Source of the DNA: Myroides oncorhynchi
Lineage (GTDB): Bacteria; Bacteroidota; Bacteroidia; Flavobacteriales; Flavobacteriaceae
Direction of reading: 5' to 3'
Assembly: GCF_020905415.1 (NCBI RefSeq)
Contig: NZ_JAJJMP010000001.1
Location: forward strand, 1,189,501-1,253,500
Length of the DNA: 64,000 bases
Under the pieces are notes generated by a model. The model saw only the letters and a list, made by a program, of their open reading frames with translations. It did not search any database and was not told the origin of the DNA. The stretch's first letter is position 1. Each line of letters starts with the position of its first letter. Below, one piece after another: positions 16,603-64,000 of the stretch. The translations under genes were made by a program, and so were the position numbers.

Positions 16603-16637
16603 TCCACTTTTACACTACGTTAAAGGAATAAATTGTA

Positions 16638-16680
16638 AAGCAAGAATAGGATATTGAGGTACCTTATTCTTGCTTTTTGT
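16638..16680 (+). terminator. Terminator after the MORN genes
   Basis: AAGCAAGAATAGG pairs with CCTTATTCTTGCTT (one bulge) across an 11-base loop and is followed by T5. Confidence 0.82.
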
Positions 16681-17004
16681 ATTATTTCACTTCTCTTTTT
16701 AAGAGATTTTTGGAAAATAAACTAGAACACTATAAATTTGCATTATCAAACGTACTTAAAACAATGAAAGTACAGTGTACTGATCAACGATAAAATATAA
16801 GTATTAAATAACTCAACCTTCCTTTCTCTAAAGAGTTATTTCTCGACCTATTTCTTCAAAAACTTAGCTACAAAAGAGGAAATACTATCGTTGATTAAAA
16901 CAATCAAATTAAAATATTACTAAAAATAGGATAAAACAGTTAGTAATTCGTACATTTAAGAATAATTACCAACCCTATTTTAGGTAAACATAATGAATTA
17001 GAAA
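16681..17004 (+). ncRNA. Candidate structured 5' leader of rnr
   Basis: This stretch before rnr has no gene. A promoter (16708-16740) would give a leader of about 260 bases. Within it, ATCAACGATA (16783-16792) pairs with TATCGTTGAT (16886-16895), GTATT (16801-16805) with AATAC (16881-16885), and AAATAACTC (16806-16814) with GAGTTATTT (16833-16841). These helices nest without conflict. This suggests an ordered leader RNA that could control RNase R, but no known riboswitch was recognised. Confidence 0.45.
16708..16740 (+). promoter_or_regulatory. Promoter for rnr
   Basis: A TTTTG -33-like element (16708-16712) is 20 bases from TAAATTTG (16733-16740), the best two-part Bacteroidota promoter match in the gap. 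Confidence 0.65.
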
Positions 17005-19182: not shown

Positions 19183-19184
19183 AC

Positions 19185-19856
19185 ATGAGAAAAATAGCTC
19201 TTATTATAGCTTTTATGGCTAGTACACTTACATTCGCTCAGACTACGAAGGTAGTAGGAGAGTTTAAAAAACTAGCTGTTTATGACCAAATTGCCTTAAC
19301 CCTTATACCTGGAGAAGAAGGTAAAATCGAAATCGAAGGAGATAAAGAAGAATACGTTAATGTAGTAAACAAAAATGGTTTCTTAAAAGTTAAAATGAAC
19401 TTCGTTAATAGTTTTCAGGGAGAAGATATTAAGGTTAAACTGTACTATAAAGATTTAAGTGAAATAGTTGCAGAACAAGGAGCAACTATAAAAGGAGAGA
19501 TAGCAATTAAAGCTACCTCATTAATTCTTAATGCTAAAACAGGAGGTATTATTACAGCCCAAATAGATACAGATAAAGCAATAATTAAATCAAGTGCAGG
19601 ATCAGTAATTACCCTAACAGGAAAAACAAATGTACAAGATGTACTAAATAGTTCAGGAGCAAAAGTAAAAAACAAAGATTTAAACTCTAATCAAGCTCTT
19701 GTAACGGTAAATGCAGGAGGAATTGCTGAAGTAAAAGCGAGTGATTTAGTAGAGGCTAAAGTTAGAGCAGGTGGAGAAATTAGAATTTTTGGAAACCCTA
19801 AAAAAATAAACGAGAAGAACGTTTTAGGAGGTGTAATTACAAAAGTAAGTGAGTAA
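19185..19856 (+). CDS. Head-GIN domain (DUF2807) exported protein
   Basis: The 223-residue protein starts with a signal peptide (MRKIALIIAFMASTLTFAQ). The rest is a head-GIN/DUF2807 beta-solenoid with repeated G-rich strands (GATIKGEIAIKA, AKTGGIITAQI, SSAGSVITLTG, VNAGGIAEVKA, RAGGEIRIFG). The family is common on Bacteroidota cell surfaces and is called putative auto-transporter adhesin, though the function is unproven. It begins two bases after the rnr stop, so it is cotranscribed with rnr, and ends at a strong terminator. Confidence 0.88.
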   Translation: MRKIALIIAFMASTLTFAQTTKVVGEFKKLAVYDQIALTLIPGEEGKIEIEGDKEEYVNVVNKNGFLKVKMNFVNSFQGEDIKVKLYYKDLSEIVAEQGATIKGEIAIKATSLILNAKTGGIITAQIDTDKAIIKSSAGSVITLTGKTNVQDVLNSSGAKVKNKDLNSNQALVTVNAGGIAEVKASDLVEAKVRAGGEIRIFGNPKKINEKNVLGGVITKVSE

Positions 19857-19907
19857 AACACACATATTATTTAAAAATAATGTATCTTGCAAAAAGATTT
19901 TGAATAA

Positions 19908-19936
19908 ATGCCAATTTTAGGATTGGCATTTTTTAA
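19908..19936 (+). terminator. Terminator after rnr-DUF2807
   Basis: AATGCCAAT (19908-19916) pairs with ATTGGCATT (19922-19930), followed by a T run. It sits only 10 bases before the LysE start. Confidence 0.88.
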
Positions 19937-19945
19937 TTATATAGG

Positions 19946-20629
19946 ATGTTTGATAATTTATTAACAGGTGTCACACTTGGATTCTTTCTAAGTTTTATGA
20001 TAGGCCCTGTTTTTTTTATTCTTATTGAGACAAGTATAACTAGAGGTTTTAAAGCAGCTATTGCATTTGATATAGGTGTAATACTAGCTGATGCGGTATT
20101 CTTTGCTATAGCGTTTTTCAGTAGTTTTAAACTAATCAATGCAATAAAAGATGACCCTGCACTATTTCTCTTTGGAGGAATGATTATGTTAACTTACGGT
20201 ATCATATCATTTGTAAAACTAAAGAAAGTACAGGTACATACCTTACAACTAGCACCACCAAATCTAAGACGTGAATACTTAAACCTCTTTGCTAAAGGAT
20301 TCTTACTTAATTTTATTAATGTAGGAGTACTTGGTTTTTGGCTAGGTATCATCATCACATTAGGTCCTCAGATGGATATGGATCCTAACAAGATGTTTAC
20401 CTTCTTTGGATTCACTATTCTAGCTTACTTCATTACTGACCTATTTAAAATATTCTTAGCTAAGAAACTACGAGAGAAGTTAACTGCTAAAAACATCCTA
20501 AAAGTAAAGAAGATCAGTAGTATCGTTATTATAATCTTCGGACTAGTAATCATGATAAAGGGGATATTGCCTAAATCAACTGAAAATGGTATCAATCTAC
20601 CTCTTTCTAATCTAGAGAAGACAAAATAA
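19946..20629 (+). CDS. LysE-family exporter
   Basis: The 227-residue integral membrane protein matches the LysE/RhtB family of amino-acid and metabolite exporters. The N-terminal GVTLGFFLSFMIGPVFFILI carries the conserved GPxxF motif, ITRGFKAAIAFDIGVILAD matches the second conserved loop, and six membrane helices are apparent. The C-terminal tail (about 205-227) is polar. It follows the DUF2807 terminator directly and must use a promoter inside that region or readthrough; no clean TAnnTTTG box was found. The exported solute is unknown. Confidence 0.9.
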   Translation: MFDNLLTGVTLGFFLSFMIGPVFFILIETSITRGFKAAIAFDIGVILADAVFFAIAFFSSFKLINAIKDDPALFLFGGMIMLTYGIISFVKLKKVQVHTLQLAPPNLRREYLNLFAKGFLLNFINVGVLGFWLGIIITLGPQMDMDPNKMFTFFGFTILAYFITDLFKIFLAKKLREKLTAKNILKVKKISSIVIIIFGLVIMIKGILPKSTENGINLPLSNLEKTK

Positions 20630-20697
20630 GTAAATTACACTTAATATAAACATTCAAAATTGGGTAGAAAAGTGTAAAATAATCTCTTTGCCTTATA

Positions 20698-20995
20698 ATG
20701 GATAGCCCAGAAATACTAAAATTAATCTTACCTACTTAGTAGAACACTTTAATAATATAAAAATAGAAGAATCAGAATCAAAACTACATATCTACTTCGA
20801 AGAAAAGTATAATTATGGAAATCAGCTGATCCACAATCAATCTCAAAAGTCTTTCATAGTATAATTACCATTGAAGACTTTCCATTATGAGGCAAGTCAC
20901 TTAAGCTACATGTACATCATAATCATTGGACAAATAAACAAACAAGAGAAATAATAATACACGATTGGAATATAATCCCAAGTACTTAGCTGCAA
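20698..20995 (+). pseudogene. Relic of an ISAon1-type transposase N-terminal region gene
   Basis: ATG 20698 begins MDSPEILKLILPT, then the frame shifts (VEHFNNIKIEESESKLHIYF, EEKYNYGNQ), then shifts again to TIEDFPL, a stop, and GKSLKLHVHHNHWTNKQTRE, IIIHDWN. Order and spacing match the N-terminal region proteins of ISAon1-family elements (LPxxLVxHF..., EDFPLRGK, RRRW). At least two frameshifts and several in-frame stops mark it as long dead. No catalytic transposase part follows in the window. Confidence 0.75.
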
Positions 20996-21109
20996 AGCTA
21001 TAGGTAAATTTTTGGTGTTAAAGCAGAGAAGTCTCAACTCCAATAGATGTAAATAGACGTTAGAGATAAAAAAAATTGTCCTTTAGATTAACTAAGTATT
21101 TTACTAGGT

Positions 21110-21259
21110 TCCCTACTTTTGACTGTGATTCAATATTTCTTCAACATTACCCCAACATTGTTCCGCTATAAGTCCTTTTTATTGAAGAATTCTTGAGCCA
21201 CTCTTGATGAGCTCTTGACTCAACTATATTGCCTAGTCCCCAACTTTTGACTGTGATCC
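21110..21259 (+). repeat. Pair of direct repeats near the IS relic
   Basis: TCCCTACTTTTGACTGTGAT (from 21110) and TCCCCAACTTTTGACTGTGA (from 21237) share CTTTTGACTGTGAT and nearby bases, differing by one or two positions. They may be remnants of IS ends, but no matching inverted partner is evident. Confidence 0.5.
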
Positions 21260-21287
21260 CTTATATTGTTTTCTTAACTTTTAGACA

Positions 21288-21318
21288 TAAAAAAAGGATA
21301 GCTGTTACACTATCCTTT
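21288..21318 (-). terminator. Terminator of tRNA-Cys
   Basis: AAAGGATAG (21293-21301) pairs with CTATCCTTT (21310-21318); on the minus strand the stem is followed by T residues. Confidence 0.85.
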
Positions 21319-21324
21319 AGTTTG

Positions 21325-21395
21325 AGGCTTCGAGCGGATTCGAACCGCTGTAGACGGTTTTGCAGACCGCTTCCTAGCCACTCGGACACAAAGCC
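21325..21395 (-). tRNA. tRNA-Cys (GCA)
   Basis: The minus-strand cloverleaf has acceptor arms GGCTTTG and CGAAGCC with discriminator T, a D-arm TCC...GGA, an anticodon arm GCGGT-CTGCAAA-ACCGT with anticodon GCA, and a T-arm AGCGG-TTCGAAT-CCGCT. The U73 discriminator and GCA anticodon identify cysteine. CCA is not encoded. A hairpin terminator lies directly downstream. Confidence 0.95.
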
Positions 21396-21483
21396 TTGTC
21401 CTTGAATTGGATTGCAAACTTACAACTAATTTTGATATTTCAAAACCATTCGATGTACTTTTTTACAACAATTTGAACACTAT

Positions 21484-21840
21484 TTATCTAACTCCTTGCA
21501 TTTCAACAGTTACATATTCTACGTCACCACCCACAGGAGGATTGATTTTAGAAACTAGTACCGTTATATCCTCTACCATTGTTATTTCAAGTAGTATTCT
21601 ATCAATAATTCGTTGTGCTACATGTTCTAACAATTTAGATCTGATAGCCATTTCCTCCTTTACGATAGTGTTTAAAGTAACATAATCTATAGAGTAGTGA
21701 AGATCATCTGTAGCTGCTGCCATAGTAAAATCTCCTTTAGCTATTAAGTCTACGCGGTAGTCAGAACCTATTTTTGCCTCTTCATCCATACATCCATGAA
21801 AAGAAAAAGTTCTGATATTATTTAATTTAATTATTCCCAT
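21484..21840 (-). CDS. folB: Dihydroneopterin aldolase
   Basis: FolB splits dihydroneopterin to 6-hydroxymethyl-dihydropterin and glycolaldehyde in folate synthesis. The 118-residue protein has the conserved N-terminal FHGCMDEEAKIGSDYRVDL segment (about 14-32), with the catalytic-region glutamate of the DEE motif, YSIDYVTLNTIV (substrate tyrosine region) and the C-terminal KINPPVGGDVEYVTVEM. Length is typical. It is transcribed alone, divergent from glnS across a 129-base gap and followed by tRNA-Cys on the same strand. Confidence 0.92.
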   Translation of the reverse strand: MGIIKLNNIRTFSFHGCMDEEAKIGSDYRVDLIAKGDFTMAAATDDLHYSIDYVTLNTIVKEEMAIRSKLLEHVAQRIIDRILLEITMVEDITVLVSKINPPVGGDVEYVTVEMQGVR

Positions 21841-21941
21841 AACAGTCGTATTTGTATAATAAAGGCTAAAAGTACAAATAATTTGACTGCTTTATATGTA
21901 TAATATGCCGAAAGACTATCAGCAATTGATTAGTTTTTTGA

Positions 21942-21949
21942 TACCTTTG
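21942..21949 (+). promoter_or_regulatory. Promoter -7 box for glnS
   Basis: TACCTTTG lies 20 bases before the glnS ATG. Confidence 0.65.
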
Positions 21950-21969
21950 TAGTTATAATAATTATTTCC

Positions 21970-23652
21970 ATGTCAACAAAAGAGAAATCATTAAACTTTA
22001 TTGAGCAAATCATTGAAGAAGATATCAAGAATGGTTTGCCTACAGAAAAACTTCATTTCCGTTTTCCGCCTGAGCCTAATGGTTATTTACATTTAGGTCA
22101 CGCGAGTTCTATTTGTTTAAACTTTGGATTAGGTATTAAATACAATGCGCCTGTTAACTTGCGCTTTGATGATACCAACCCATCTAAAGAAGAACAGGAG
22201 TTTGTTGACGCAATCAAACATGACGTAGAATGGCTTGGGTACAAATGGGCAAATGAGGTTTATGCTTCTGACTATTTCCAACAGTTATACGACTGGGCTG
22301 TCCAAATGATTAAGGATGGCAAAGCATACGTAGACAGCCAGACTTCAGAAGTTATGGCGCAACAAAAAGGTACTCCAACTACTGTAGGTGTAGATAGTCC
22401 ATATAGAAATCGATCTGTAGAAGAGAACCTAGATTTATTCGAAAGAATGAAAAACGGTGAATTCGAAGAAGGTACTCATATCTTACGTGCTAAAATAAAT
22501 ATGGCACATACTAATATGCTTATGCGTGACCCTATCATGTACAGAATCATGAAAAAGGCTCACCATAGAACGAATAACGATTGGTGTATTTACCCAATGT
22601 ATGATTGGGCTCACGGAGAGAGTGACTACTTAGAGAGTATCTCACACTCATTCTGTACTTTAGAGTTCCTTCCTCACAGAGAATTATACGATTGGTTCTT
22701 AGATCAGATCGTTGATGAGAATAATATACGCCCAAAACAACGCGAGTTCGCTAGAAGAAACCTTTCTCATACAGTAGTAAGCAAGCGTAAACTAGCTCGT
22801 CTAGTAAGCGAAGGATTTGTGACTGGATGGGATGATCCACGTATGTCTACAATCTCTGGATTGCGAAGAAGAGGGTATACAGCGGCTTCTATTGTCAACT
22901 ATGCTAATACGATTGGTATCGCGAAGAGAGATAACCTTATCGATGTATCTCTTTTAGAATTTTGTATTAGAGAAGATTTAAATAAAATTGCTCCTCGTGT
23001 TATGGCTGTTTTAGATCCTGTGAAGTTAGTGATTACTAACTATCCAGAAGATTATGAAGAATGGTTAGACGCTGAGAATAACCCGGAAGAGGAAGTTATG
23101 ACTTACCGTAAAGTTCCGTTCTCTAAAGAGCTTTATATCGAGCAAGAAGACTTTAAAGAAGAAGCGAATAACAAATTCTTTAGACTAACACTTGGTAAAG
23201 AAGTACGTCTTAAAAATGCTTATATCATCAAAGGTGAAAGCGTAGTGAAAGACGAGAATGGAAACATCACTGAGATACACGCTACTTATGATGCAGACAG
23301 TAGAAGTGGAAGTGGAAGTGAAGCGAGTAAGCGAAAAGTAAAAGGAACTATCCACTGGGTATCTATACCACATGCTGTAGAGGCTGAAGTGCGTATCTAT
23401 GATCGTCTATTCATAGATGAAAATCCTGATGGAAATAAAGAGGTTGACTTTGTAGAATTCGTTAATCCTAATTCACTACAAGTAGTTAAAGGATATTTAG
23501 AACCAAGCTTAAGCACTGCTGTAGAGGGGGATAAGTTCCAATTCCAAAGATTAGGTTACTTCTGTGTAGACAAAGAAAGTACTGCCAATAAATTAGTATT
23601 TAATAAAACTGTAGGTTTAAGAGATACATGGTCAAAACTTGAACAGAAATAA
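21970..23652 (+). CDS. glnS: Glutaminyl-tRNA synthetase
   Basis: GlnRS charges tRNA-Gln with glutamine. The 560-residue length is normal. The class I HIGH motif lies in FPPEPNGYLHLGHASS (about 31-46), the second signature is VSKRKL (about 269-274, KMSKS counterpart), and FDDTNPSKEE, DWAHGESDYLESISHS and STISGLRRRGY are GlnRS-specific. The C-terminal anticodon-binding beta barrels are complete. Having both glnS and gltX in this window means direct Gln-tRNA charging and no need for the GatCAB route for glutamine. It has its own promoter and terminator. Confidence 0.97.
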   Translation: MSTKEKSLNFIEQIIEEDIKNGLPTEKLHFRFPPEPNGYLHLGHASSICLNFGLGIKYNAPVNLRFDDTNPSKEEQEFVDAIKHDVEWLGYKWANEVYASDYFQQLYDWAVQMIKDGKAYVDSQTSEVMAQQKGTPTTVGVDSPYRNRSVEENLDLFERMKNGEFEEGTHILRAKINMAHTNMLMRDPIMYRIMKKAHHRTNNDWCIYPMYDWAHGESDYLESISHSFCTLEFLPHRELYDWFLDQIVDENNIRPKQREFARRNLSHTVVSKRKLARLVSEGFVTGWDDPRMSTISGLRRRGYTAASIVNYANTIGIAKRDNLIDVSLLEFCIREDLNKIAPRVMAVLDPVKLVITNYPEDYEEWLDAENNPEEEVMTYRKVPFSKELYIEQEDFKEEANNKFFRLTLGKEVRLKNAYIIKGESVVKDENGNITEIHATYDADSRSGSGSEASKRKVKGTIHWVSIPHAVEAEVRIYDRLFIDENPDGNKEVDFVEFVNPNSLQVVKGYLEPSLSTAVEGDKFQFQRLGYFCVDKESTANKLVFNKTVGLRDTWSKLEQK

Positions 23653-23677
23653 TAGATTTTATTGATAATATAATTAT

Positions 23678-23725
23678 AAAATGGTGTTTTAACTAAGTAT
23701 TAACGGTTAAAGCACCATTTTTTGT
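23678..23725 (+). terminator. glnS terminator
   Basis: AATGGTG-TTTTAAC pairs with GTTAAA-GCACCATT around a 12-base loop, followed by a T run. Confidence 0.82.
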
Positions 23726-23763
23726 TTAATTTTAAAGTATTAATCATTTTAAAAACAATTGTT

Positions 23764-24105
23764 ATGTCAAAGAATTTAGGAAATACAGCTATCGCAGTAT
23801 TAGCGGGAGTAGTAGTAGGAGCAGGATTAGGAATTTTATTTGCTCCTGATGAAGGAAAAAAAACACGTAAAAAAATAAAAAAATCCTTTAATGATTCGAA
23901 AGATGATTTAAGTGATAAGATTGACGAATTAAAAAAACAAGTTCGCAACACTGTTTCTAAAAAGAAGCATGACTTCGAAACTGGATTCAATGAATTTCTA
24001 GCAAATTCAGAAGATAAAAAAGACGATGTTATTGCTAACTTAGAAAAAAAATTAGCCGAATTAAAAGCTAAAGCTGATACAATAGCAGATAGCGTTAAAA
24101 AATAA
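23764..24105 (+). CDS. YtxH-domain protein
   Basis: I use the ATG at 23764 (MSKNLGNTA), since the longer frame starts inside the glnS terminator region. The 113-residue protein has one N-terminal glycine-rich membrane helix (AIAVLAGVVVGAGLGILFAPDEGKK in two parts, 9-33), the FAPxxGxxxR YtxH motif, and a long lysine-rich coiled coil (about 35-113). YtxH proteins are small stress-associated membrane proteins of unclear function. It starts a three-gene unit with a holin-like protein (11-base gap) and a DUF6327 protein. Confidence 0.87.
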   Translation: MSKNLGNTAIAVLAGVVVGAGLGILFAPDEGKKTRKKIKKSFNDSKDDLSDKIDELKKQVRNTVSKKKHDFETGFNEFLANSEDKKDDVIANLEKKLAELKAKADTIADSVKK

Positions 24106-24116
24106 TAAGGTAGATA

Positions 24117-24467
24117 ATGGCATTTGAGGATATAAAGGATAATATAAGTGATATACGAAAAGATTCAGAGGAGTTAATCAATACTAGTCTGGATTATTAT
24201 CGCTTATGGGGATTTAAAGTTACAGCTAAAGCTGGTAGTAAGTTTATGACTTTACTGCTTGTCTCACTTTTTATTATGATGTCTCTTTTCTTATTTTCTC
24301 TATGTGCTGCCTATGCCCTAGCTGTATATTTTGAAAGCAATGCTATCGGTTTTTTAATGATGGGAACTTTTTATCTAATCATTGCATTTATAGCTTATAT
24401 ATTTAGAAAGCCCCTAGTAGAGAGACCATTTATCAAGAAGTTGTCTGAAATAATTTTTAACGATTAA
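24117..24467 (+). CDS. Phage-holin-superfamily-like (DUF1469-type) membrane protein
   Basis: The 116-residue protein has a polar helical N-terminus (1-40) and two membrane helices (about 43-73 and 77-97), then a basic tail. This matches the putative Actinobacterial-type holin-X/DUF1469 family. In flavobacteria this protein accompanies YtxH and DUF6327 proteins and is not part of a prophage; no phage genes are nearby. A role in envelope stress or membrane organisation is a guess. Confidence 0.8.
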   Translation: MAFEDIKDNISDIRKDSEELINTSLDYYRLWGFKVTAKAGSKFMTLLLVSLFIMMSLFLFSLCAAYALAVYFESNAIGFLMMGTFYLIIAFIAYIFRKPLVERPFIKKLSEIIFND

Positions 24468-24478
24468 ATATTTATTTG

Positions 24479-24730
24479 ATGAAGAAGTCATATTCCTCTA
24501 TTGAAGAAATTAATGCTGATTTAGAGATTCTGAAAGTTCAGAAAGATATTCATTACTATAAGATCTTTCAATCTGTAGATAATATCAAAGAAGAACTAAC
24601 ACCAAATAATCTCGTTAGGAATACTTTTGGTACTGTTACGTCCTTTGTCAAAGGATCTAATAATGCTCAAGCTTTTCTGATATCCGCGGCAATGAAATAC
24701 TTTTTCAAAAAGATACGAAATAATAAATAG
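24479..24730 (+). CDS. DUF6327-like small protein
   Basis: The start is the ATG at 24479, giving 83 residues. The protein is mostly helical, with SIEEINADLEILKVQKDIHY (6-25), NIKEELTPNNLVRNTFGTVT and a weakly hydrophobic C-terminal segment ending KKIRNNK. It matches in pattern a small flavobacterial family I know as DUF6327. It closes the YtxH/holin-like unit. Its stop codon lies inside the left arm of the long palindromic terminator at 24722-24779. Confidence 0.75.
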   Translation: MKKSYSSIEEINADLEILKVQKDIHYYKIFQSVDNIKEELTPNNLVRNTFGTVTSFVKGSNNAQAFLISAAMKYFFKKIRNNK

Positions 24731-24779
24731 CATAAAAAAAGCTCCTGAACTTTCAGGAGCTTTTTTTATGCTATTTATT
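24722..24779. terminator. Long perfect palindrome acting as bidirectional terminator
   Basis: Two 28-base arms (24722-24749 and 24752-24779) are perfect reverse complements around a CT centre, with A7/T7 tracts and a GCTCCTGAA core. The stop codons of both convergent genes (24728-24730 and 24775-24777) lie within the arms. Confidence 0.92.
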
Positions 24780-25761
24780 CGTCTTCTAAGGCTTGTTCAT
24801 ACCCGCCGTGACTACTATTATCATTTCTGGTAGAAGATCCATCATAACGATTAGAATTACCGTTATCTATACTCATTTCTTTCATCTTGCTACTTGCAGC
24901 AAATGATGCTATCATATTCGTCAACATATCACTAGCTGCTGATGGAGCATTAGGTAGTAAGATCAAGTTAGATCTACTATCCGCACCTACAGACTGAAGT
25001 GTATCATAATGCTGAGTAACCACTATTAAAGCTGAAGCTTCTTGTGAGTTAATTCCAACTTTATTCAATACATCCACGCTCTCTACTAGTCCTTGAGCAA
25101 TCTCTCTACGTTGGTCAGCGATACCTTGTCCTTGAAGGCGTTTAGATTCCGCCTCTGCTTTTGCCTTTGCTACGATACGTATTCTACTAGCTTCAGCTTC
25201 ATATTCAGCTGCCACTTTCTCTCTATCCGCAGCATTAATACGGTTCATCGCGTTCTTAACTTGAATATCTGGATCAATATCTGTAATTAGTGTATTAATT
25301 ATATCATACCCATAAGTAGTCATTGCCTCATTTAATTCACGCTTTACTGCTACTGCTATGTTATCTTTTCTCTCGAATACATCATCTAATATCAGCTTAG
25401 GTACCTCTGCACGTACAACATCGAAAACATAAGATGTAATCTGATCGTGTGGATACTCTAATTTATAGAACGCATCTTCAACGCGATCTTGAATAACCTT
25501 AAACTGAATAGAAACTTTCAATTTAACGAATACGTTATCCTTAGTCTTAGTCTCAATTAAAACATCTAATTGTTGGATGCGTAGGTTAACTACCCCTGCC
25601 TTTCTATCCACGAAAGGTATCTTAATTTGTAATCCTGAATGTCTAATACTATTAAATCTTCCGAATCGTTCGATGATAACAGCTGACTGCTGTTTTACTG
25701 TAAAAAAACCTAAAAGCAATAGTATTACTATCGCTCCAACTATAAAGTACATTGGTGTCAT
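24775..25761 (-). CDS. SPFH/Band 7 family membrane protein (slipin/stomatin type)
   Basis: The 328-residue protein has an N-terminal membrane anchor (about 4-22), the stomatin start VKQQSAVIIERFGRFNSIRH, an SPFH domain to about 190, and a charged coiled-coil region (AADREKVAAEYEAEASRIR) followed by a disordered Ser/Asn/Asp tail. SPFH proteins form membrane-associated oligomeric scaffolds, often linked to protease control. No NfeD partner is adjacent. The upstream lipoprotein gene on the same strand is 58 bases away and may be cotranscribed. Confidence 0.92.
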   Translation of the reverse strand: MTPMYFIVGAIVILLLLGFFTVKQQSAVIIERFGRFNSIRHSGLQIKIPFVDRKAGVVNLRIQQLDVLIETKTKDNVFVKLKVSIQFKVIQDRVEDAFYKLEYPHDQITSYVFDVVRAEVPKLILDDVFERKDNIAVAVKRELNEAMTTYGYDIINTLITDIDPDIQVKNAMNRINAADREKVAAEYEAEASRIRIVAKAKAEAESKRLQGQGIADQRREIAQGLVESVDVLNKVGINSQEASALIVVTQHYDTLQSVGADSRSNLILLPNAPSAASDMLTNMIASFAASSKMKEMSIDNGNSNRYDGSSTRNDNSSHGGYEQALEDE

Positions 25762-53784: not shown

Positions 53785-55005
53785 TTATATTTTTTTAACT
53801 ACTAATGCTGAATTTGTTCCACCAAATCCAAAAGAATTAGACAAATATATATCAAATTTTTTATCTAAGGTCTTATTCGTTATATTTAATCTACTTGAAT
53901 CCTCATCAGCATTTTCAAAATTCAAATTAGGCGCAATAAAATCATTATTCATCATTAAAGTAGAATAAACAATCTCAGATGCTCCCGCCATCCAACACTC
54001 ATGTCCAGTCAATGATTTAGTAGAACTAACCACAGGTGAATATCCTTTAAATACATCATAGATAGCCTTTGCTTCATTTGCATCACCTAATGGAGTAGAG
54101 GTAGCATGAGCATTAATATATCCTATCTCATCGATTGCTACTCCAGACTGTTCTATCGCTCTTCTCATCGCTGTAGCTGGTCCATCTACATTTGGTGTAG
54201 AAATATGTCCTCCATTAGAAGAGAAACTATATCCCATAACTTCTGCTATTATAGTAGCCCCACGTTTCATGGCTGATTCGTAACTTTCTAAAATTACAGT
54301 AGCTCCACCACCACTAGGTACTAATCCTGTTCTAGAAGCATCAAATGGTCTAGACGCTTTATCTGGAGTAACTCCTTCTTCAGCGAAAACTCCTAATCCA
54401 TCAAAACTTGCCATAGCATAAGGATTAATCTCCTGTGCTCCACCACAGATCACAATGTCCTGTAGTCCACCCTTTATCATCAGATATCCTAATCCTATCG
54501 CATGTGATCCACTAGCACATGCAGCACTAATAGTCATATTGATTCCTCTTAATTTAAAGATAGTTGATAGATTCATCGTAACAGTAGAATTCATCGATTT
54601 AAAAATGGCACCTGACCCAATTAAAGCAGTATCCTTTTTCTCTCTAAATATATCTGTTGCCTCTATCACTGCATTAGACACACTGTCATTACCATATAAT
54701 ATTCCTACTTCATGTTGCTCTAAATAAGCATCTGTAATCCCTGCATTCTTTAATGCCTCCACTGTAGCCACGTAAGCATACTCAGTCTCTTCTCCAATAG
54801 AAATACGCTGTCTTCTGCTCAATTCACTTTTTAAATCAGGACGTGGTACCATACCTGTATAGGCTGATCTAAACCCTTTATCATGGCGCTGTTGATCATA
54901 GATAATACCTGAATTACCTGTATATAACGATTTTTTTACTTCTTCTAAATCTAGTCCAAGACAAGAGTAAATACCCATACCCGTAATTACTACTCTGTTA
55001 TTCAT
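53785..55005 (-). CDS. FabB/F-like beta-ketoacyl-ACP synthase
   Basis: The 406-residue enzyme has C163 in TISAACASGSHAIG, histidines in NAHATSTPLGD and TGHECWMAGASE, and the lysine in SSTKSLTGH, so the active site is complete. The HATST form and WMAGASE segment resemble cluster-specific FabB-like enzymes of aryl polyene pathways. It lies between fabG and an ACP gene, a compact elongation set. Confidence 0.93.
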   Translation of the reverse strand: MNNRVVITGMGIYSCLGLDLEEVKKSLYTGNSGIIYDQQRHDKGFRSAYTGMVPRPDLKSELSRRQRISIGEETEYAYVATVEALKNAGITDAYLEQHEVGILYGNDSVSNAVIEATDIFREKKDTALIGSGAIFKSMNSTVTMNLSTIFKLRGINMTISAACASGSHAIGLGYLMIKGGLQDIVICGGAQEINPYAMASFDGLGVFAEEGVTPDKASRPFDASRTGLVPSGGGATVILESYESAMKRGATIIAEVMGYSFSSNGGHISTPNVDGPATAMRRAIEQSGVAIDEIGYINAHATSTPLGDANEAKAIYDVFKGYSPVVSSTKSLTGHECWMAGASEIVYSTLMMNNDFIAPNLNFENADEDSSRLNITNKTLDKKFDIYLSNSFGFGGTNSALVVKKI

Positions 55006-55008
55006 ATC

Positions 55009-55740
55009 TTAAGAATATATACCTCCATTAATATTAATGACTTCTCCTGTGATATATCCAGCTTTATCAGAAGCTAAGAAACCAACTAAATCTGCTACTT
55101 CTTCTGCCTTACCAAAGCGGTTAGCTGGTATCATTTTCACAAGTTCTTTCTGATCCAGTTCAGCTGTCATATCTGACTCTATAAATCCTGGTGCTACAGC
55201 ATTCACAGTGATGTTTCTCTTAGCTACCTCCTGAGCTAATGCCTTAGTAGCCCCTATTACTCCAGCCTTAGCCGCTGAGTAATTTGTCTGACCTGCTGTA
55301 CCCTTTACTCCAGATACAGATACAATATTAATGACACGACCATATCGATTGCGCAACATTTTTTGCATAAAGAACTGCGTTACATTATAAAAGCCATTTA
55401 AACTAGTATTTAACACTTTATTCCAATCTTCAATTGGCATCCACATAAACAGTCCATCACGAGTAATACCAGCATTATTAACAATGACTTCCACTATAGC
55501 AGATGGATTAGTCTCTGTCCATTCATTTAAAGTTGATACTACATCATCGTGATTACTCACATCGAACTTAATAATCTCTCCTGTCGCTCCTAATGCTTCT
55601 ACATCAGCTAGCGTCTCTAAAGCTTTAACCTCATTAGATTGATAGTTGATTAATATATGATATTTATGTTCTGCTGCTAGACGCAAACATATTGCTCTAC
55701 CTATTCCTCTTGATCCTCCAGTTACTATAGCAGTTTTCAT
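55009..55740 (-). CDS. fabG: 3-oxoacyl-ACP reductase
   Basis: The 243-residue short-chain dehydrogenase has the NADP(H) motif TGGSRGIGRAI (7-17), NNAGIT (88-93), catalytic S141 and the Y154xxxK158 pair in NYSAAKAG. It reduces 3-oxoacyl-ACP to 3-hydroxyacyl-ACP, supplying the hotdog dehydratases of the same operon. It is a cluster copy and need not be the housekeeping FabG. Confidence 0.93.
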   Translation of the reverse strand: MKTAIVTGGSRGIGRAICLRLAAEHKYHILINYQSNEVKALETLADVEALGATGEIIKFDVSNHDDVVSTLNEWTETNPSAIVEVIVNNAGITRDGLFMWMPIEDWNKVLNTSLNGFYNVTQFFMQKMLRNRYGRVINIVSVSGVKGTAGQTNYSAAKAGVIGATKALAQEVAKRNITVNAVAPGFIESDMTAELDQKELVKMIPANRFGKAEEVADLVGFLASDKAGYITGEVININGGIYS

Positions 55741-55750
55741 ACTCTATTTT

Positions 55751-56866
55751 TTATTTACTAAATAATTCTAAGTTGTCATACCACTTATTGCCTAACAACT
55801 CTCCTTTGGTATTGATATACCCCCATTTTTTATCTTTTTTGACTCTAGCTACTCCATCCTTAAATCCTTTACCCTGAGTCTTAAAAGAAAAACCAAGTGC
55901 TGTTATATCATACTCAAATGGTACTACTAACGTACCTTTAGTATCTATAAACCCCCACTTATTATCCTTTACAGCTGCTAATCCATCTTTAGAGAACGCT
56001 AATGCATCTGTATATTTATGAGGAATTATTATCTCATTGTTTTCATTTATATATCCCCACTTCTTATCTGTCTTTGCTGCTATAAGCCCCTGAGACATTT
56101 GTCGCAAGTTATCGTAAATTGGAGCGATTGACCACTCTAGCTTAGCATTTACCACTCCCCATGATCTACCATTACGAGCAATAATATACTCAGGATTCTC
56201 TATATCTAATATCTTATCGGCACCGATAATCTCCTTAAAATTACCTTGATAGATTATTCCAAAACAGTTACCAAACTTAGCCCAAGCATAACCATTAATA
56301 TAATTACCTATTTCTAAATATTCTACTGGTACTACTTCAATACCATTACTATCTATAATACCCCATTTCTTACTAAGACATACCTTAGCATATCCATCTG
56401 TAAAGGGACGTATAATATCATATTTAGGTTCTACTATCACCTGAGCCTGAGCATTAATCAGTCCTACGCGTTCTCCTTGTTTATAAATAGCTACCCCTTG
56501 TTCGTTAAACTCAAACAGTTTATAATTAGAAAACGGAACTTCATTACCTTGTTTATCTATATAGAATGTTTGCTTATCTTTTACAACTATTGCAATCCCT
56601 CCTTTAAAACTAGTAACAGAACTATAAATAGGTTGAATCACAAACTCACCGTTTGTATTTATATAACCATACTTTTTACCAGAATAAGCAGCAGCAGCTA
56701 ATCCGTCCGAAAAGCCAAGTGCTTTACTGAATACAGGTTTTATAGCAGTCTCACCCTTTTTATTAATAAAACCAACCTTGCCATTATTATTAAATAATGC
56801 TAGTTCTTGACCGTAAGCAAATACCATCATCATTGATAGTCCTATTGTTAAAACGAGTTTATTCAT
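55751..56866 (-). CDS. Exported WG-repeat protein
   Basis: The 371-residue protein has a signal peptide (MNKLVLTIGLSMMMVFAYGQ) and about eight WG/KWGY-type repeats (KVGFINKKGETAIKPVF, KYGYINTNGEFVIQPIY, KWGIIDSNGIEVVPVEY, KWGYINENNEIIIPHKY and others), predicted to form a beta-rich repeat domain. WG-repeat proteins have no fixed function. Its place directly after the ammonia-lyase gene (6 bases) within the pigment operon is unusual. It may help hold or present pigment in the envelope. Confidence 0.88.
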   Translation of the reverse strand: MNKLVLTIGLSMMMVFAYGQELALFNNNGKVGFINKKGETAIKPVFSKALGFSDGLAAAAYSGKKYGYINTNGEFVIQPIYSSVTSFKGGIAIVVKDKQTFYIDKQGNEVPFSNYKLFEFNEQGVAIYKQGERVGLINAQAQVIVEPKYDIIRPFTDGYAKVCLSKKWGIIDSNGIEVVPVEYLEIGNYINGYAWAKFGNCFGIIYQGNFKEIIGADKILDIENPEYIIARNGRSWGVVNAKLEWSIAPIYDNLRQMSQGLIAAKTDKKWGYINENNEIIIPHKYTDALAFSKDGLAAVKDNKWGFIDTKGTLVVPFEYDITALGFSFKTQGKGFKDGVARVKKDKKWGYINTKGELLGNKWYDNLELFSK

Positions 56867-56872
56867 ACAAGT

Positions 56873-58390
56873 TTATTTTTTTAAATATTCTTTTACTTGT
56901 TGTAGGAATGGGTACATCACTACATCCTCTACGAATGTAGGAATTATAGCGCGTATATCATTATACCATTCTAATGTTGTTAGCGATAATTTATCTTTGC
57001 ACTGTAAAGCATCTACTGCTTGAGCAATAGTAATCATCTGTATAGATAATACCTCGAAGCTGTTCTCTATTACTTTATCACATAATACAGCAGCATTAGT
57101 ACCCATACTCACAATATCTTGATTATCATTGTTATTAGGAATACTATGTACATACATAGACGTAGATAATGTCTGACACTCTGCAGTAGTCGAAGTAGCG
57201 GTAAACTGTACCCCTTGCATACCGAAGTTAAACCCTAATTTACCTAGATTAACAAATGCAGGTAAAAGTTCATTTATTTTTGCATTTAGTAGATAGTTAA
57301 GCTGTCTTTCTGATAACATCGTTAGCCTAGTGATTACTAACTTTAGTTTATCCATTTCTAATGAAACATAATCTCCATGGAAATTACCTCCGTGATAAAC
57401 TTGCTTAGTTTCTAGATCAACAATAGGGTTATCATTAGCAGAGTTAATCTCATTCTCTAGCACTTTTCCTACTGTACTTATCGTATCATATACTGGACCT
57501 AAGATCTGAGGTACACATCTAATAGAATAGTACTCTTGTACTTTATCTTTAAAGATACTCTCTTGATTTTCTCCAGTATATAAGTGTTCCTCTCTCTTTT
57601 TTATCAGTTGACTAGTAGATAGATTAGCACGCATTTGTTCTGCGATATACTGCTGTCCTTCATGTAGTTTAGCTTGATTTAGTTCTACTGAAAAATGGTC
57701 ATCATATGCACTTACTATTTCGTTGACTGCACATGACATTTTCACTGACCAATCTAATAAAGTATTAGCATTATGCCAATTTAATATCCCTATACCTGTC
57801 ATCACTGACGTACCATTCATTAGTGATAGTCCCTCCCTAATACGTATCTCTATAGGTACTAATCCCTCTAGTGCAAATACTTCTTTTGTACTTCTACGTT
57901 CTCCTTTATAGAATACTTCTCCTTCACCTATTAATACTAATGCTAAATGTGCTAACTGTACTAAGTCACCACTAGCTCCAACACTTCCATGTGCAAAAAT
58001 TAAAGGAGTAATATGTCTATCTAATAATTCTTTCATCAACTGAATGACACTAAGATTAACTCCTGAATATCCAAGCGAAAGTGTATTTAAACGTGCTAAA
58101 ATAGCTGCTCTAACCTGATCTACTGATAGAGGATGACCAATACCAGAAGCATGGCTCCTAATCAAATTATATTGCAATTGAATACACTCATCTTCTTGTA
58201 TACGGTACTGAGCCATTGGTCCAAAACCTGTATTCACACCATAAATAACTTTATTCTTAGAAAAATCTAATAGAAAAGAGAAGCTATTCTCTACACGAGC
58301 TACCAACTCTTCTGATAAAACTATTTTCTCTTTATCACTTAAGATAGTTACAAAGTTTTTTAGGGTCAAGAAGTCTTTTAAGATATTCAT
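56873..58390 (-). CDS. Aromatic-amino-acid (tyrosine) ammonia-lyase
   Basis: The 505-residue HAL/PAL/TAL-family enzyme has the MIO-forming triad A139-S140-G141 in GSVGASGDLVQLAH, the catalytic tyrosine Y50 in VIYGVNTGFG and the selectivity segment NLIRSHASGIG (76-86). It is very like the characterised tyrosine ammonia-lyase of Flavobacterium johnsoniae, as recalled from memory, sharing NLIRSH and MAQYRI. It should convert tyrosine to 4-coumarate, the starter of the aryl polyene chain. It is the first gene of the 24-gene operon and has a TAAATTTG promoter box upstream. Confidence 0.93.
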   Translation of the reverse strand: MNILKDFLTLKNFVTILSDKEKIVLSEELVARVENSFSFLLDFSKNKVIYGVNTGFGPMAQYRIQEDECIQLQYNLIRSHASGIGHPLSVDQVRAAILARLNTLSLGYSGVNLSVIQLMKELLDRHITPLIFAHGSVGASGDLVQLAHLALVLIGEGEVFYKGERRSTKEVFALEGLVPIEIRIREGLSLMNGTSVMTGIGILNWHNANTLLDWSVKMSCAVNEIVSAYDDHFSVELNQAKLHEGQQYIAEQMRANLSTSQLIKKREEHLYTGENQESIFKDKVQEYYSIRCVPQILGPVYDTISTVGKVLENEINSANDNPIVDLETKQVYHGGNFHGDYVSLEMDKLKLVITRLTMLSERQLNYLLNAKINELLPAFVNLGKLGFNFGMQGVQFTATSTTAECQTLSTSMYVHSIPNNNDNQDIVSMGTNAAVLCDKVIENSFEVLSIQMITIAQAVDALQCKDKLSLTTLEWYNDIRAIIPTFVEDVVMYPFLQQVKEYLKK

Positions 58391-59761: not shown

Positions 59762-59770
59762 TATCATACT

Positions 59771-59802
59771 TAAGGTCACTTGTAACAGAGTGACCTTTTT
59801 TT
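59771..59802 (+). terminator. Terminator of the halogenase gene
   Basis: AAGGTCACT (59772-59780) pairs with AGTGACCTT (59789-59797), followed by eight T residues. Confidence 0.9.
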
Positions 59803-60926
59803 TGTATACCTAACTATAAGCCTATCAAATCATGAATTATATAATTTGACAAATATGCCTTTTTAAACATTATCTCTTACACTAATATATATGTCTTTTA
59901 AACTATAAAGAATAGATCGTTCTTCTCTCTTCAATAAACATCTCAAAGTTTGTTTGCACACCATTCTCCACAAGTATTTACCAAAAATCATATAAAAACT
60001 TCTCCACTAATTCTTTATTTTTTTTTACTTTTCCATTCCTAAACAACTAAGAAAATTACTTTTTAGCACCCTAAATCATCTCTTTTTTTGATTTATCACT
60101 TCCAAATACAATCTAAATCTTCTTTTTGATAAATTTTTGTCTTTTTTTTTAAAGCACTTTTTTATTAATTTATTGTTTTTCAATCATTTAACTAATATTC
60201 CTTCAATTAACTAATTTCCTCAAACACCCTTTGCACCCAGTAAATTCAAGCCTTATGTTGGAATTATAGGACATTAAAAGGACAATCATAGGACTATACT
60301 TGGGCTGAGAAGGTTTTTGTCCTTGTATAGTCTTATTATTCTTCTCGAGCTTTCCCTCAAAAGCAAAACTCTTCTACACACTACTCACAGTAAAAACAAT
60401 ATAAAATCAACACTTATAAAAGAATAAAAAAGGCATAATACATAGGTATATATCTACCCTTAATCATAGAGTAATATTTCCGTATTTCTCAGTTCAAAAA
60501 TTGAGTGTTTTGATAGTCTTTTAAAGAACAACATTGATTATTTTTTTGATGTATTTACAAGCAAAAAATTCCCCTATAAAAGATGACATAAAAGAATTTT
60601 TAAAAACTAGTTTTTTACTTAAAAACGATCAGTACCTGTATACGTAATAGTCAAAAAAAATACCTGTAAAACGGATGTGAATTTTAAAAATAATGAGAAA
60701 AACACCAGTCTAGTAAAGTTTGATTTTCTTAAAAATCCAATTTAAATAGATGAATAATATGTTTGAAATTCACCTAAAAATAATGCGTTTACTAGTAAAA
60801 AATATGGTGAAAAGGGTGTTATACATAAACAATAAAAGTTCACAACAGGCATTAAAATAAATAGTAACCAAATTTACTATATTTTGTAAAGTATTATAAA
60901 ACAATCTTTTACATTCTAAACACCAT
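59803..60926. other. AT-rich noncoding DNA left of the origin candidate
   Basis: This 1.1-kb stretch has no supported gene in either strand, many A and T runs and the interleaved inverted repeat at 60278-60332. It is probably the left flank of the replication origin region. Confidence 0.6.
60278..60332. repeat. Interleaved inverted repeats with pseudoknot topology
   Basis: AAGGACAA (60278-60285) pairs with TTGTCCTT (60317-60324), and GACTATAC (60292-60299) pairs with GTATAGTC (60325-60332). The order is a-b-a'-b', each arm 8 bases and perfect. No gene overlaps it. Confidence 0.6.
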
Positions 60927-61378
60927 TGTTAATAAGATACAGTATAGTATTGATTTTAAACAAACTAAGATTTAACAATTTGTGTTGATAACTGTAAAAA
61001 CTTAGAAAAAACTTTTTTTTGTTTATTTCAAATAAATTACAATACAGCTCATCCACACACATTTGCAAAAATACTTTCTAAAAGATATTGTAAGGATATT
61101 AAGATCAAAAGTATGGGTTGTGAACAGTTTTACATACCCTCATTTATCTAAAAATAGCTGTTGATAACCAAAAAGTAGCTTGTTAATAACCAATATAAAC
61201 AATTTATTTTAAAGGATTTATGAATTAACATCCTGTTGATAAGTTTTAATAATCAAGTTTAAAGAATTTATAGAAAAAAGTTATTGTACATATTAACAGA
61301 CAATACTATACTACTAGTTTATTTTAAAATTTTAAAAAATCTATTTATATATATTATAGATGTTAATAACGTTGATAA
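60927..61378. other. Candidate chromosomal replication origin (oriC) with DnaA-box cluster
   Basis: Seven 9-mers of TGTTGATAA/TGTTAATAA type lie in one orientation at 60927, 60983, 61159, 61181, 61234, 61361 and 61370 (the last CGTTGATAA, abutting the one before). TCATCCACA at 61049 is one mismatch from the E. coli consensus. A 40-base stretch at 61321-61360 with only two G/C bases could be the unwinding element. It lies between divergent gene directions, near mnmG (a common origin neighbour) and parS-like sites. dnaA is not in view. Confidence 0.65.
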
Positions 61379-61987
61379 CTGTTTTTGTTTTCGATGTATG
61401 GTATGATATCTTGTTCGATATGAAATATTGAAGCTATGGAGGGTTGTTTTTTAAAACTTGGAAGGATGTGTTTTATCGAAATATTTTTCGACGCTTTGTA
61501 GTTTGCTTAAAAAAATATAAGTAGGTTCTAATTTTATAAAATGCATTGTTCATCGTGCAACAATTTATAGATAGCTTCTGTAATTTGTGTATATGTTTTT
61601 TGGTGGGCCACAGGGTTAAATATAGAAAATGTATTGTGTGTTTTTGGACTTGGATTTTTAAGATATTTAGTATCTCATTATTGGATCTAGATGTATATTT
61701 TTTAAATAAGATATTTAGTTTTATTTTTCTAGAATAAGGTAATTTTTAGATGGTAAATTTTTAGGAGTACAAGGAGAATTTTAAGTTTAAAATTTAGAAT
61801 TTCGTAGTCTTATTTTATTATTTTCTTCTCTGATTAGTTTTGGATATCCAACTGGTGTGTAGTTCTTTTTTAGTAAGGTTAAAAGAAAATAGTATTTGGT
61901 AATCTTCCTGTATTTAGCAAATATTTTATATGATCTATGCTAAATAAAAAATAGTGTAGTAGTGGTTAGCCATTCATAAAAGTAAAA

Positions 61988-62003
61988 TGTTCCTCGTGGA
62001 ACA
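61988..62003. promoter_or_regulatory. parS-like site 1
   Basis: TGTTCCTCGTGGAACA matches the 16-base parS palindrome with one mismatch in the centre. Confidence 0.7.
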
Positions 62004-62402
62004 TTTTGTTATACCATTACTTTTTTGATTTACTTCATTTTCTTTTTATAGATTTTTTACGTATAGGTTTTTTCGGAGGACTTTATCTTACGTCTTTAGT
62101 TTTTTGGAAAAATAATAATCTTTTATAACGCTCTGAGATTTCCATATTTTTTTTTGAATGTGACTTAGTCCGTTTTATGGAAATTATAGCAAGGAAATTA
62201 GTTTCTTTTAAAATGTATGTTTAAATGTTTTTATCTAATAATCGAAGTAGGCGATGTAGTTGTTCTATTTAGAAAAATGTTTTACACAAAATATTTTAAA
62301 GGAATTGTAATGGGGTAAATAATAGTTCTCGATTTGTCTTTTTGTAGTTTAGTTCTTAGCTGTTGATCAAAGTATGTGTTCTGATTGTTGTATTTAAAAA
62401 AA

Positions 62403-62418
62403 TGTTGCACGTGGAATG
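62403..62418. promoter_or_regulatory. parS-like site 2 (weaker)
   Basis: TGTTGCACGTGGAATG keeps the TGTT-n-CACGTGGAA core but differs at the right end. Confidence 0.5.
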
Positions 62419-62757
62419 TTTTAGGGAAGTAGTGAAGGGTAATCGAAATAATTATTTTTATAGTTTTCTCTTTTGTTAGTGTAAAGGGAAATGATTTATG
62501 TAACTTTGGTTTTCTAAATTTATTAGGTTTCTTTACTATTGTAGATTTTTATTAAAACTTCGCGTCGTAGTTTTGATATTTGAATTTTACTTTATAGATG
62601 CGTAGAATATTGAAAGCTCACGTGGTTGTATTGACTATGAGCATGTGTTTTGGTGCGTATTTAAGGGAGTTAAAGCTAATTCATTAACTATCTGAGTTTT
62701 TAATTCGTAAGATTGATATTTTAAGGGCTTTTTAAGTCTATTTTTTATTTTTCCGTG

Positions 62758-62765
62758 TACCTTTG
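62758..62765 (+). promoter_or_regulatory. Promoter -7 box for ybeY
   Basis: TACCTTTG lies 28 bases before the ATG at 62794 and decides that start over the longer frame, which would overlap the box. Confidence 0.65.
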
Positions 62766-62793
62766 CAACAATTATTTTTTAATAGAGAAAAGA

Positions 62794-63213
62794 ATGATAT
62801 TTTTTAACTATGAAACTGATTTTCAATTAGTTGATTTAACTAAATATGAAGATTGGATAGAAGAGATAGTAACTTCAGAAGGATTAATCCCTGGTGATAT
62901 CAGTTATATATTTTGTGATGATGAGTACTTACATGAGATAAATGTAAAATATTTAGATCATGATACATTGACAGATATTATTAGTTTTGATTATTGTGAA
63001 GGTAAAATAGTTTCAGGAGATATTTTCTTGTCTGTAGAAAGAGTTCGTGAGAACGCCAAGGAATTTAATGTTGATTTTGATGTTGAATTAGTGAGAGTTA
63101 TGGCTCATGGTGTGTTACACTACTGTGGATATAAAGACAAATCACCAGAAGACGAGCGTTTAATGCGCAGTAAAGAAGAGGAGAAAATGGCTATGTTCCA
63201 CGTGGAACAATAG
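62794..63213 (+). CDS. ybeY: Endoribonuclease YbeY (16S rRNA maturation factor)
   Basis: YbeY is a metal-dependent endoribonuclease needed for 16S rRNA 3'-end maturation and ribosome quality control. The ATG at 62794 gives 139 residues, normal for the family. The HGVLHYCGYKDK motif corresponds to the zinc-binding HGxLHLxGYDH; the first two histidines are present, but the third is replaced (K-D-K), which I believe is usual in Bacteroidota. SGDIFLSVERV is also conserved. The last codons (MFHVEQ) are formed by a perfect parS-like palindrome at 63194-63209. Confidence 0.93.
   Translation: MIFFNYETDFQLVDLTKYEDWIEEIVTSEGLIPGDISYIFCDDEYLHEINVKYLDHDTLTDIISFDYCEGKIVSGDIFLSVERVRENAKEFNVDFDVELVRVMAHGVLHYCGYKDKSPEDERLMRSKEEEKMAMFHVEQ
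63194..63209. promoter_or_regulatory. parS-like site 3, inside the 3' end of ybeY
   Basis: TGTTCCACGTGGAACA is a perfect 16-base palindrome of parS type and encodes most of the FHVEQ end of YbeY. Confidence 0.8.
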
Positions 63214-63237
63214 TATTTTCTAAGTAATTTAATTTAA

Positions 63238-63253
63238 TGTTTCACGTGGAACA
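63238..63253. promoter_or_regulatory. parS-like site 4, abutting the mnmG start
   Basis: TGTTTCACGTGGAACA ends one base before the mnmG ATG and fits the parS consensus in 15 of 16 palindrome positions. ParB bound here would cover the translation initiation region of mnmG in DNA terms. Confidence 0.8.
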
Positions 63254-64000
63254 ATGAGTATATTCGCTGATAAATATGATGTAATAGTAGTAGGAGGAGG
63301 GCACGCTGGTTCAGAAGCTGCTGCTGCTGCTGCAAATATGGGTTCTAAAACTTTATTGATAACAATGAGTTTGCAAAACATCGCCCAGATGTCTTGTAAT
63401 CCTGCAATGGGAGGAATCGCTAAGGGGCAAATCGTTAGAGAGATTGACGCTTTAGGGGGGTACTCTGGAATTGTCTCTGATAAAACAGCGATACAGTTTA
63501 AGATGCTTAACAAATCTAAAGGGCCTGCTATGTGGTCACCCCGTGTTCAGTCGGATCGTATGCGCTTCGCTGAGACATGGAGACTGATGCTAGAGGGAAC
63601 TCCTAATTTGGATTTTTACCAAGACATGGTACGCTCACTTATTATTAAAAATCATAAGATAGAAGGAGTAGTTACTAATCTGGGCTTAGAGATAAAAGCT
63701 GAAACGGTAATTCTAACTAATGGTACATTCTTAAATGGACTTATCCATATCGGTGAGAAACAATTCGGTGGAGGTAGAGCTGGAGAGAGTGCTGCTTATG
63801 GTATTACTGAAGACTTAGTGAAAGCTGGTTTTGTTTCAGGACGTATGAAGACAGGTACACCTCCGCGAGTAGATGGACGTTCTTTAGATTATAGTAAAAT
63901 GGAAGTTCAAGGTGGTGATGTTAACCCTTCTAAGTTCTCATATTTAGATATAACAAAACCATTAGTAGAGCAAAGAGATTGCTATATGACATATACTTCG
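63254..64000 (+). CDS. mnmG: tRNA uridine-5-carboxymethylaminomethyl synthase MnmG (5' part)
   Basis: MnmG (GidA) with MnmE installs the cmnm5 group on wobble uridine of several tRNAs, using FAD and folate. The frame begins MSIFADKYDVIVVGGGHAG at 63254 and is open to the window edge (about 249 of some 620 residues). Diagnostic segments are the FAD motif VVGGGHAGSEAAAAAANMG, NPAMGGIAKGQIVREIDALG, GPAMWSPRVQSDR, FGGGRAGESAAYG and RMKTGTPPRVDGRS. It follows ybeY by 40 bases, and parS site 4 sits directly before its start. It is often an origin neighbour in bacteria. Confidence 0.96.
   Translation, partial: MSIFADKYDVIVVGGGHAGSEAAAAAANMGSKTLLITMSLQNIAQMSCNPAMGGIAKGQIVREIDALGGYSGIVSDKTAIQFKMLNKSKGPAMWSPRVQSDRMRFAETWRLMLEGTPNLDFYQDMVRSLIIKNHKIEGVVTNLGLEIKAETVILTNGTFLNGLIHIGEKQFGGGRAGESAAYGITEDLVKAGFVSGRMKTGTPPRVDGRSLDYSKMEVQGGDVNPSKFSYLDITKPLVEQRDCYMTYTS

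Follow-up and report, generated by a model that had tools for sequence, protein, structure and literature searches.

The closest described counterparts of the locus reported here are the chromosomal parS sites of Bacillus subtilis, Caulobacter and Pseudomonas. These sites are 16-bp palindromes with a CACGTG core that occur in multiple copies near the origin, and the ParABS systems to which they belong have a canonical ParB with a GERRxRA box and an adjoining ParA-like gene. In many studied bacteria, ParB bound at parS also loads Smc. The nucleoid occlusion protein Noc, which binds NBS sites, shares the protein family and the use of palindromic sites, and its sites are scattered over the chromosome. 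Another relevant case is that of Bacteroidetes gut bacteria examined by Hi-C. According to the accessible portion of that report, parS clusters and GC skew served to place origins that are not always at dnaA, and two Bacteroidetes had no known condensin, yet one of them showed a secondary diagonal (PMC10197239).

The locus of Myroides oncorhynchi described here shares the palindrome, its core, the clustered copies near the origin, the canonical ParB and the adjoining ParA-like gene with the first group, and the parS clusters, the origin away from dnaA and the lack of a detected condensin with the gut bacteria. Unlike the ParABS systems of B. subtilis, Caulobacter and Pseudomonas, it has its parB 0.9 Mb from parS, its sites flank mnmG, one site forms the 3' end of ybeY, and neither an SMC over the cut-off nor ScpA was found. 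The flanking of mnmG and the ybeY tail also set it apart from the gut bacteria, as neither is described in the accessible portion of that study. We conclude, with a probability of about 0.95, that these sites constitute the parS centromere belonging to this chromosome's ParABS system. This identity, which had been proposed in an earlier note on the same DNA, is supported because the sites cluster genome-wide, a single canonical ParB with the matching specificity residues is encoded, the sites are conserved in relatives, and the codons that overlap one of them are constrained. The features are collected in Table 1. The window is the whole 64,000-nucleotide stretch that was analysed, C1:1189501-1253500 of a genome of 4,156,454 bases in 2 contigs; contig 2, of about 3.4 kb, is perhaps a plasmid.

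Table 1. Features of the parS region in window numbering.
Feature	Position	Strand	Remarks
Putative oriC: six DnaA-box-like 10-mers (TGTTGATAAC, ≤1 mismatch)	60983..61379	+	Holds the cumulative GC-skew minimum, 61078
Degenerate parS-like palindrome	61547..61562	-	2 mismatches; no counterpart in L049
parS-like palindrome TGTTCCTCGTGGAACA, extended dyad around it	61988..62003	.	1 mismatch; no counterpart in L049
Degenerate parS-like site	62403..62418	+	2 mismatches; no counterpart in L049
ybeY (rRNA maturation RNase), C-terminus MFHVEQ*	62794..63213	+	TIGR00043, 106.8 bits, cut-off 45
Exact parS TGTTCCACGTGGAACA, within the final codons of ybeY	63194..63209	.	0 mismatches
Exact parS TGTTTCACGTGGAACA, immediately 5' of the mnmG start codon	63238..63253	+	0 mismatches
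mnmG (gidA), truncated by the window end	63254..64000	+	TIGR00136, 848.1 bits over the whole gene
Exact parS 3' of the mnmG stop, outside the window	65168-65183		Whole-genome pattern scan

The earlier note had listed four near-consensus sites and a weaker one at 61547, and all five are where it placed them. Of these, 63194 and 63238 match TGTTnCACGTGGAACA with no mismatches and 61988 with one; 62403, with two, is weaker than was implied. The same is true of 61547, which has three mismatches on the plus strand and two on the minus strand. Exact copies of parS number three (63194, 63238 and 65168), and they are 16-bp palindromes close to TGTTNCACGTGNAACA. At up to 3 mismatches the window contains 10 matches, corresponding to 5 palindromic places, against 0.87 expected, and none of 100 shuffles reached 10. 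Within 59762-62754, a stretch without any open reading frame of at least 80 aa, 0.008 places at up to 2 mismatches are expected and 3 are present, a number not attained in any of 2000 Markov simulations. The claim that such a cluster is unlikely by chance is thus borne out by the shuffles, these simulations and the whole-genome scan, and chance clustering was rejected as very unlikely on these grounds.

The whole-genome search that the earlier note had suggested, conducted with TGTTNCACGTGGAACA at up to 2 mismatches, returned 16 matches at 10 places, and the control with the pattern written backwards returned 5 matches. The 10 places comprise the five in the window, the exact site at 65168 (C1 1254668, 36 bases past the mnmG stop), a one-mismatch site at 73764 (C1 1263264), and three elsewhere with 2 mismatches each, which are of the order of the chance level judged against the backwards control. 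Equally good sites are therefore not spread around the chromosome; they are clustered almost exclusively in the origin region and rare elsewhere, as parS sites are. The place at 73764 was considered as an additional parS and set aside. It lies inside a gene for an MltD-like lytic transglycosylase and encodes an LPRETQ motif, and it is probably a coding coincidence, because in the homologue of the relative G018 this motif is encoded, in the same frame, by the identical 16-mer. Of the 18 genus members read, G018 has the most similar MnmG, and it has no counterpart of 61547, 61988 or 62403 at up to 2 mismatches within 6.2 kb upstream of mnmG. A near-mode search of a plasmid collection found no plasmid relative of the stretch, and no Rfam model run over L040 3000-9300 reached the gathering threshold.

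The genome has one ParB match, which exceeds its curated cut-off and is the sole protein above the parB_part cut-off. Its gene is at 2.16 Mb, which puts 0.91 Mb between it and parS, and the best PDB match of the protein by sequence is 7bnk, a 'ParB family protein' (3e-52). The protein contains the motif GERRLRA, which we take to be the CTP box of ParB. Residues R173 and G201 are reported to contact parS in ParB, with Q and R in their place in Noc (PMC7383237, in the portion accessible). In the alignment, the ParB of this genome has R at 173 and G at 201, the parS-type combination and not the Q173/R201 of Noc. Among 30 aligned ParBs (one from this genome and one from each of the 30 relatives except G027), R173 is found in 30, G201 in 29 and GERRxRA in 29. 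Directly upstream of parB, on the minus strand (L041:4438-5202), lies a ParA-like gene whose product has a KGGVGKTT Walker motif, as expected of a ParA partner. The best NCBIfam match of this product is ParA_partition at 112.7 bits against a cut-off of 180, and it exceeds no curated cut-off among the 25 families listed.

A set of 31 genomes was used for comparison, consisting of this genome, 18 others of the genus and 12 of the order. ParB exceeds its cut-off in all 31, this genome included, and TGTTNCACGTGNAACA at up to 1 mismatch occurs in 29, with 123 forward matches versus 12 for the backwards control. The two genomes that have ParB and no parS match at this stringency, G023 and G029, both carry a departure in ParB: the former has an altered GERRLTA, and the latter (L223) has Ala at the G201 position, and its ParB and its site may have changed together.

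As the earlier note had proposed, the sites were compared in related genomes, where they recur around mnmG. The 29 genomes with matches provide 30 loci, and mnmG is present in every one of them. Sites at up to 1 mismatch flank mnmG on both sides in 26 of the 29, this genome included and G014 on two contigs, and are one-sided in the remaining three (G025, G026 and G028); the site of G028 may be a coding match. A wider sample was formed by what we call the named loci, the best 80 of at least 589 loci encoding a MnmG relative, of which 76 had sufficient flank and 4 were dropped. A site was counted within 1000 bases 5' of mnmG or within 400 bases 3' of it. Among these 76 of the best 80, a site at up to 1 mismatch is found 5' in 70, 3' in 66 and on both sides in 64, and at up to 2 mismatches 5' in 74, 3' in 74 and on both sides in 73. 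The expectation per locus, with the rest of the same loci as background, is 0.02 and 0.05, respectively. Three loci lack the pair at 2 mismatches: L113, whose site at 475 bases is past the limit, L140, which has none, and L149, which has a 3' site only. In a draw of 31 genomes across the phylum (this genome included), which gave 30 loci, 29 of the 30 have a site no more than 520 bases from mnmG when 2 mismatches are allowed, and 27 of the 30 when 1 is; the locus without a site within this distance at 2 mismatches is L246. Outside the class, the sites of this draw are often one-sided relative to mnmG. One locus, L072, has up to 10 sites upstream of mnmG at up to 1 mismatch. The separation of parB from parS also recurs, being 0.85 Mb and about 1.2 Mb in the single-contig relatives G010 and G020.

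The exact site at 63194-63209 spans the final codons of ybeY, ATG TTC CAC GTG GAA CAA TAG, and every one of the 19 genus members read, among them this genome, has the corresponding tail. For the codon analysis, codons played no part in choosing the tails: a tail was any FH close to the end of the protein that is followed by V or M and next by E, K, G or R. The 110 loci examined gave 61 distinct ybeY genes with the tail and 43 without it; in 5 loci ybeY or mnmG could not be read, and 1 was a duplicate and was left out. The His codon of the tail is CAC in 61 of 61, against 474 of 1381 in the background of mnmG and ybeY from the same loci, and the Val codon is GTG in 59 of 59, against 747 of 4455 in that background. 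These genes share ancestry, so that the counts are not phylogenetically independent and are given here with no exact probability. The peptide itself changes from Glu to Lys in 7 of 61 tails and from Val to Met in 2 of 61. That CAC and GTG are fixed while the peptide varies indicates that the DNA, and not the peptide, is what is conserved in the ybeY tail. The 43 tail-less ybeY genes include 35 at named loci, and 30 of these 35 retain, 5' of mnmG, a site with no more than 1 mismatch. The exact site on the other side of mnmG has a second peculiarity. A 17-pair hairpin lies just after mnmG (L040:8657-8694, or 65157-65194) and has this site as the upper part of its stem. With a stem ending in a T run and a fold z of -6.8, the hairpin resembles an intrinsic terminator, which the terminator scan puts on the opposite strand. 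This site may be a transcription terminator and a parS at once.

Several other explanations of the sites were weighed against the reading as a centromere. Exact sites at the end of ybeY and directly 5' of mnmG are positioned such that a bound protein could alter mnmG expression, and the palindromes might accordingly be the operators of a transcription factor for ybeY and mnmG. We regard this as very improbable, since the sites also occur 3' of mnmG and in arrays, as many as ten in L072, and since their sequence is the parS expected for the ParB type of this genome; a side-effect of ParB on mnmG transcription is possible. It is just as improbable that the peptide FHVEQ is important to YbeY and the resemblance to parS secondary. 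The presence of this tail throughout the genus members read agrees with a role of the peptide, but the synonymous codons are fixed where peptide changes are tolerated, no tail among the 61 writes its His with another codon, and most tail-less named loci keep a site 5' of mnmG. Binding of the sites by a Noc-type nucleoid occlusion protein has next to no likelihood. The ParB of this genome does score 235 bits with the Noc model TIGR04285, though the cut-off there is 315, and the one protein that exceeds the parB_part cut-off carries R173 and G201; moreover, the sites cluster at the origin, unlike those of Noc.

A different question concerns the three imperfect sites at 61547, 61988 and 62403, which may be weak or decaying. 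That they are decayed remnants no longer bound by ParB is compatible with the other sites being the centromere, and we consider it a serious possibility that falls a little short of even odds. They have 1-2 mismatches and lack counterparts upstream of mnmG in G018, as a remnant would. On the other side, they keep partial dyad symmetry and lie far above chance, and the ParB of P. aeruginosa is reported, in the accessible part of the source, to bind half-sites (PMC10419367).

With the centromere reading, and by analogy with known ParABS biology, the following course of events can be proposed. ParB dimers would recognise the palindromes at 63194, 63238 and 65168, with weaker recognition possible at the degenerate 61988, 62403 and 61547. 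ParB would be loaded with CTP as clamps and would spread across the oriC-ybeY-mnmG region. Movement of the ParB complex by ParA would then part the sister origins shortly after the start of replication, which would be at about 61.0-61.4 kb.

Loading of Smc at parS appears to be missing from this scheme. Three families were searched, namely SMC (TIGR02168), ScpA (PF02616) and MksE/JetB (PF13835). Weak SMC matches occur in all 31 genomes and none exceeds the cut-off, the best being 32.9 bits against 567 with at most 15 candidates scored per genome; in this genome all 28 candidates were scored, and the best reached 24.3 bits. ScpA was found in 0 of 31 genomes, as was MksE/JetB, the latter model being positive in 1 of 14 control genomes. 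The same 14 controls gave an SMC match in 14, over the cut-off in 10, and ScpA in 9. An encoded Smc-ScpAB, on which parS-Smc loading would depend, was thus not found by the SMC and ScpA searches. Given no SMC over the cut-off and no ScpA, parS here is best read as serving segregation driven by ParA, without Smc loading.

The position of the replication origin was assessed by GC skew. The cumulative skew curve, begun at 40001 and run to the end of L040, is lowest inside the cluster of six boxes. At up to 1 mismatch TGTTGATAAC, which we infer to be the DnaA box in this genome, has 12 matches in the window against 6.27 expected; 2 of 100 shuffles reached 12, and 6 of the 12 matches fall in the cluster, which is the probable oriC. 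Among twenty 10-kb skew samples from the genome, the six between 0.1 and 1.07 Mb are negative, and the one at 1.15 Mb is close to zero. Between 1.27 and 3.26 Mb the values are mostly positive, with those at 1.57 and 2.41 Mb slightly below zero. The skew is again close to zero at 3.46 Mb and is negative at 3.67 and 3.95 Mb. This pattern is the one expected if the origin is near 1.25 Mb, with the terminus at around 3.3-3.5 Mb. The assembly begins at dnaA (C1:37-1422), and since this gene is 1.25 Mb from the skew-defined origin, it is not an origin marker here. Two side observations concern the sequence to the left of the origin. Positive-skew patches occur at 15000-25000 of the window within a strongly negative region and could stem from leading-strand genes or from DNA that was recently inverted or inserted. 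Flexirubin-type pigment genes lie just left of the origin on the minus strand (53785-58390), with a FlxA tyrosine ammonia-lyase at 878.8 bits and genes adjoining it that we take to be FabG- and FabF-like.

The earlier note had regarded the parS cluster as independent support for the origin call. The call itself is independently backed by the skew minimum and the genome-wide samples, but parS follows mnmG rather than oriC. The skew minimum lies 0.5-2.2 kb from the parS sites of the window in this genome. In the two single-contig relatives, with the minimum sought within 80 kb, it lies 16-18 kb from parS in a gene-free gap (G010) and 19-21 kb from parS at the edge of a gene-free gap (G020). Because of these distances, parS gives the origin region only: it is tied to mnmG and marks the origin region to about 20 kb, not the exact oriC. 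A search for pairs of DnaA boxes was tried as an oriC finder in relatives and abandoned, as it matched 3 of 31 genomes, this one included, which has 2 extra pairs elsewhere. Among 99 loci with 3 kb upstream, three or more DnaA-box-like sites 5' of ybeY are found only in L040 and L049. The available parts of two genome reports bear on the same region. One puts the origin at mnmG in a flavobacterial genome (PMC12843772). The other labels oriC of a Mariniflexile genome at leuB_2/dnaA and ter at mnmG, and says that dnaA misfits the skew (PMC11278836); these two labels may be swapped, given parS at mnmG in relatives.

The kind of element described here is well known, and what is less expected is a site embedded in a coding sequence, a broad link to mnmG, and a condensin that escapes detection. 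Among the papers listed by a literature search over titles and the beginnings of abstracts, with subscription papers mostly outside it, none described a Flavobacterium parS, mnmG flanking or the ybeY tail. For the Bacteroidota as a whole a wider picture can be put forward tentatively, at somewhat less than an even chance. An ancient centromere would have been welded to mnmG, with parAB moved off and oriC at a variable distance; in many Flavobacteriaceae the centromere would lie within ybeY, whose C-terminus would be dictated by ParB binding, and the system would work without Smc-ScpAB.

If this is true, the organization of the origin without Smc-ScpAB would rest on ParAB alone or on a new factor that aligns the chromosome arms. 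The locus described here gives the group, where dnaA need not mark the origin, a conserved centromere locus, and parS at mnmG is a landmark for locating the origin region. The ybeY tail provides an example of a centromere that constrains the C-terminus of a protein. These bacteria also offer a natural setting in which ParABS may act without the usual condensin, so that the separate roles of ParB-parS and Smc become testable.
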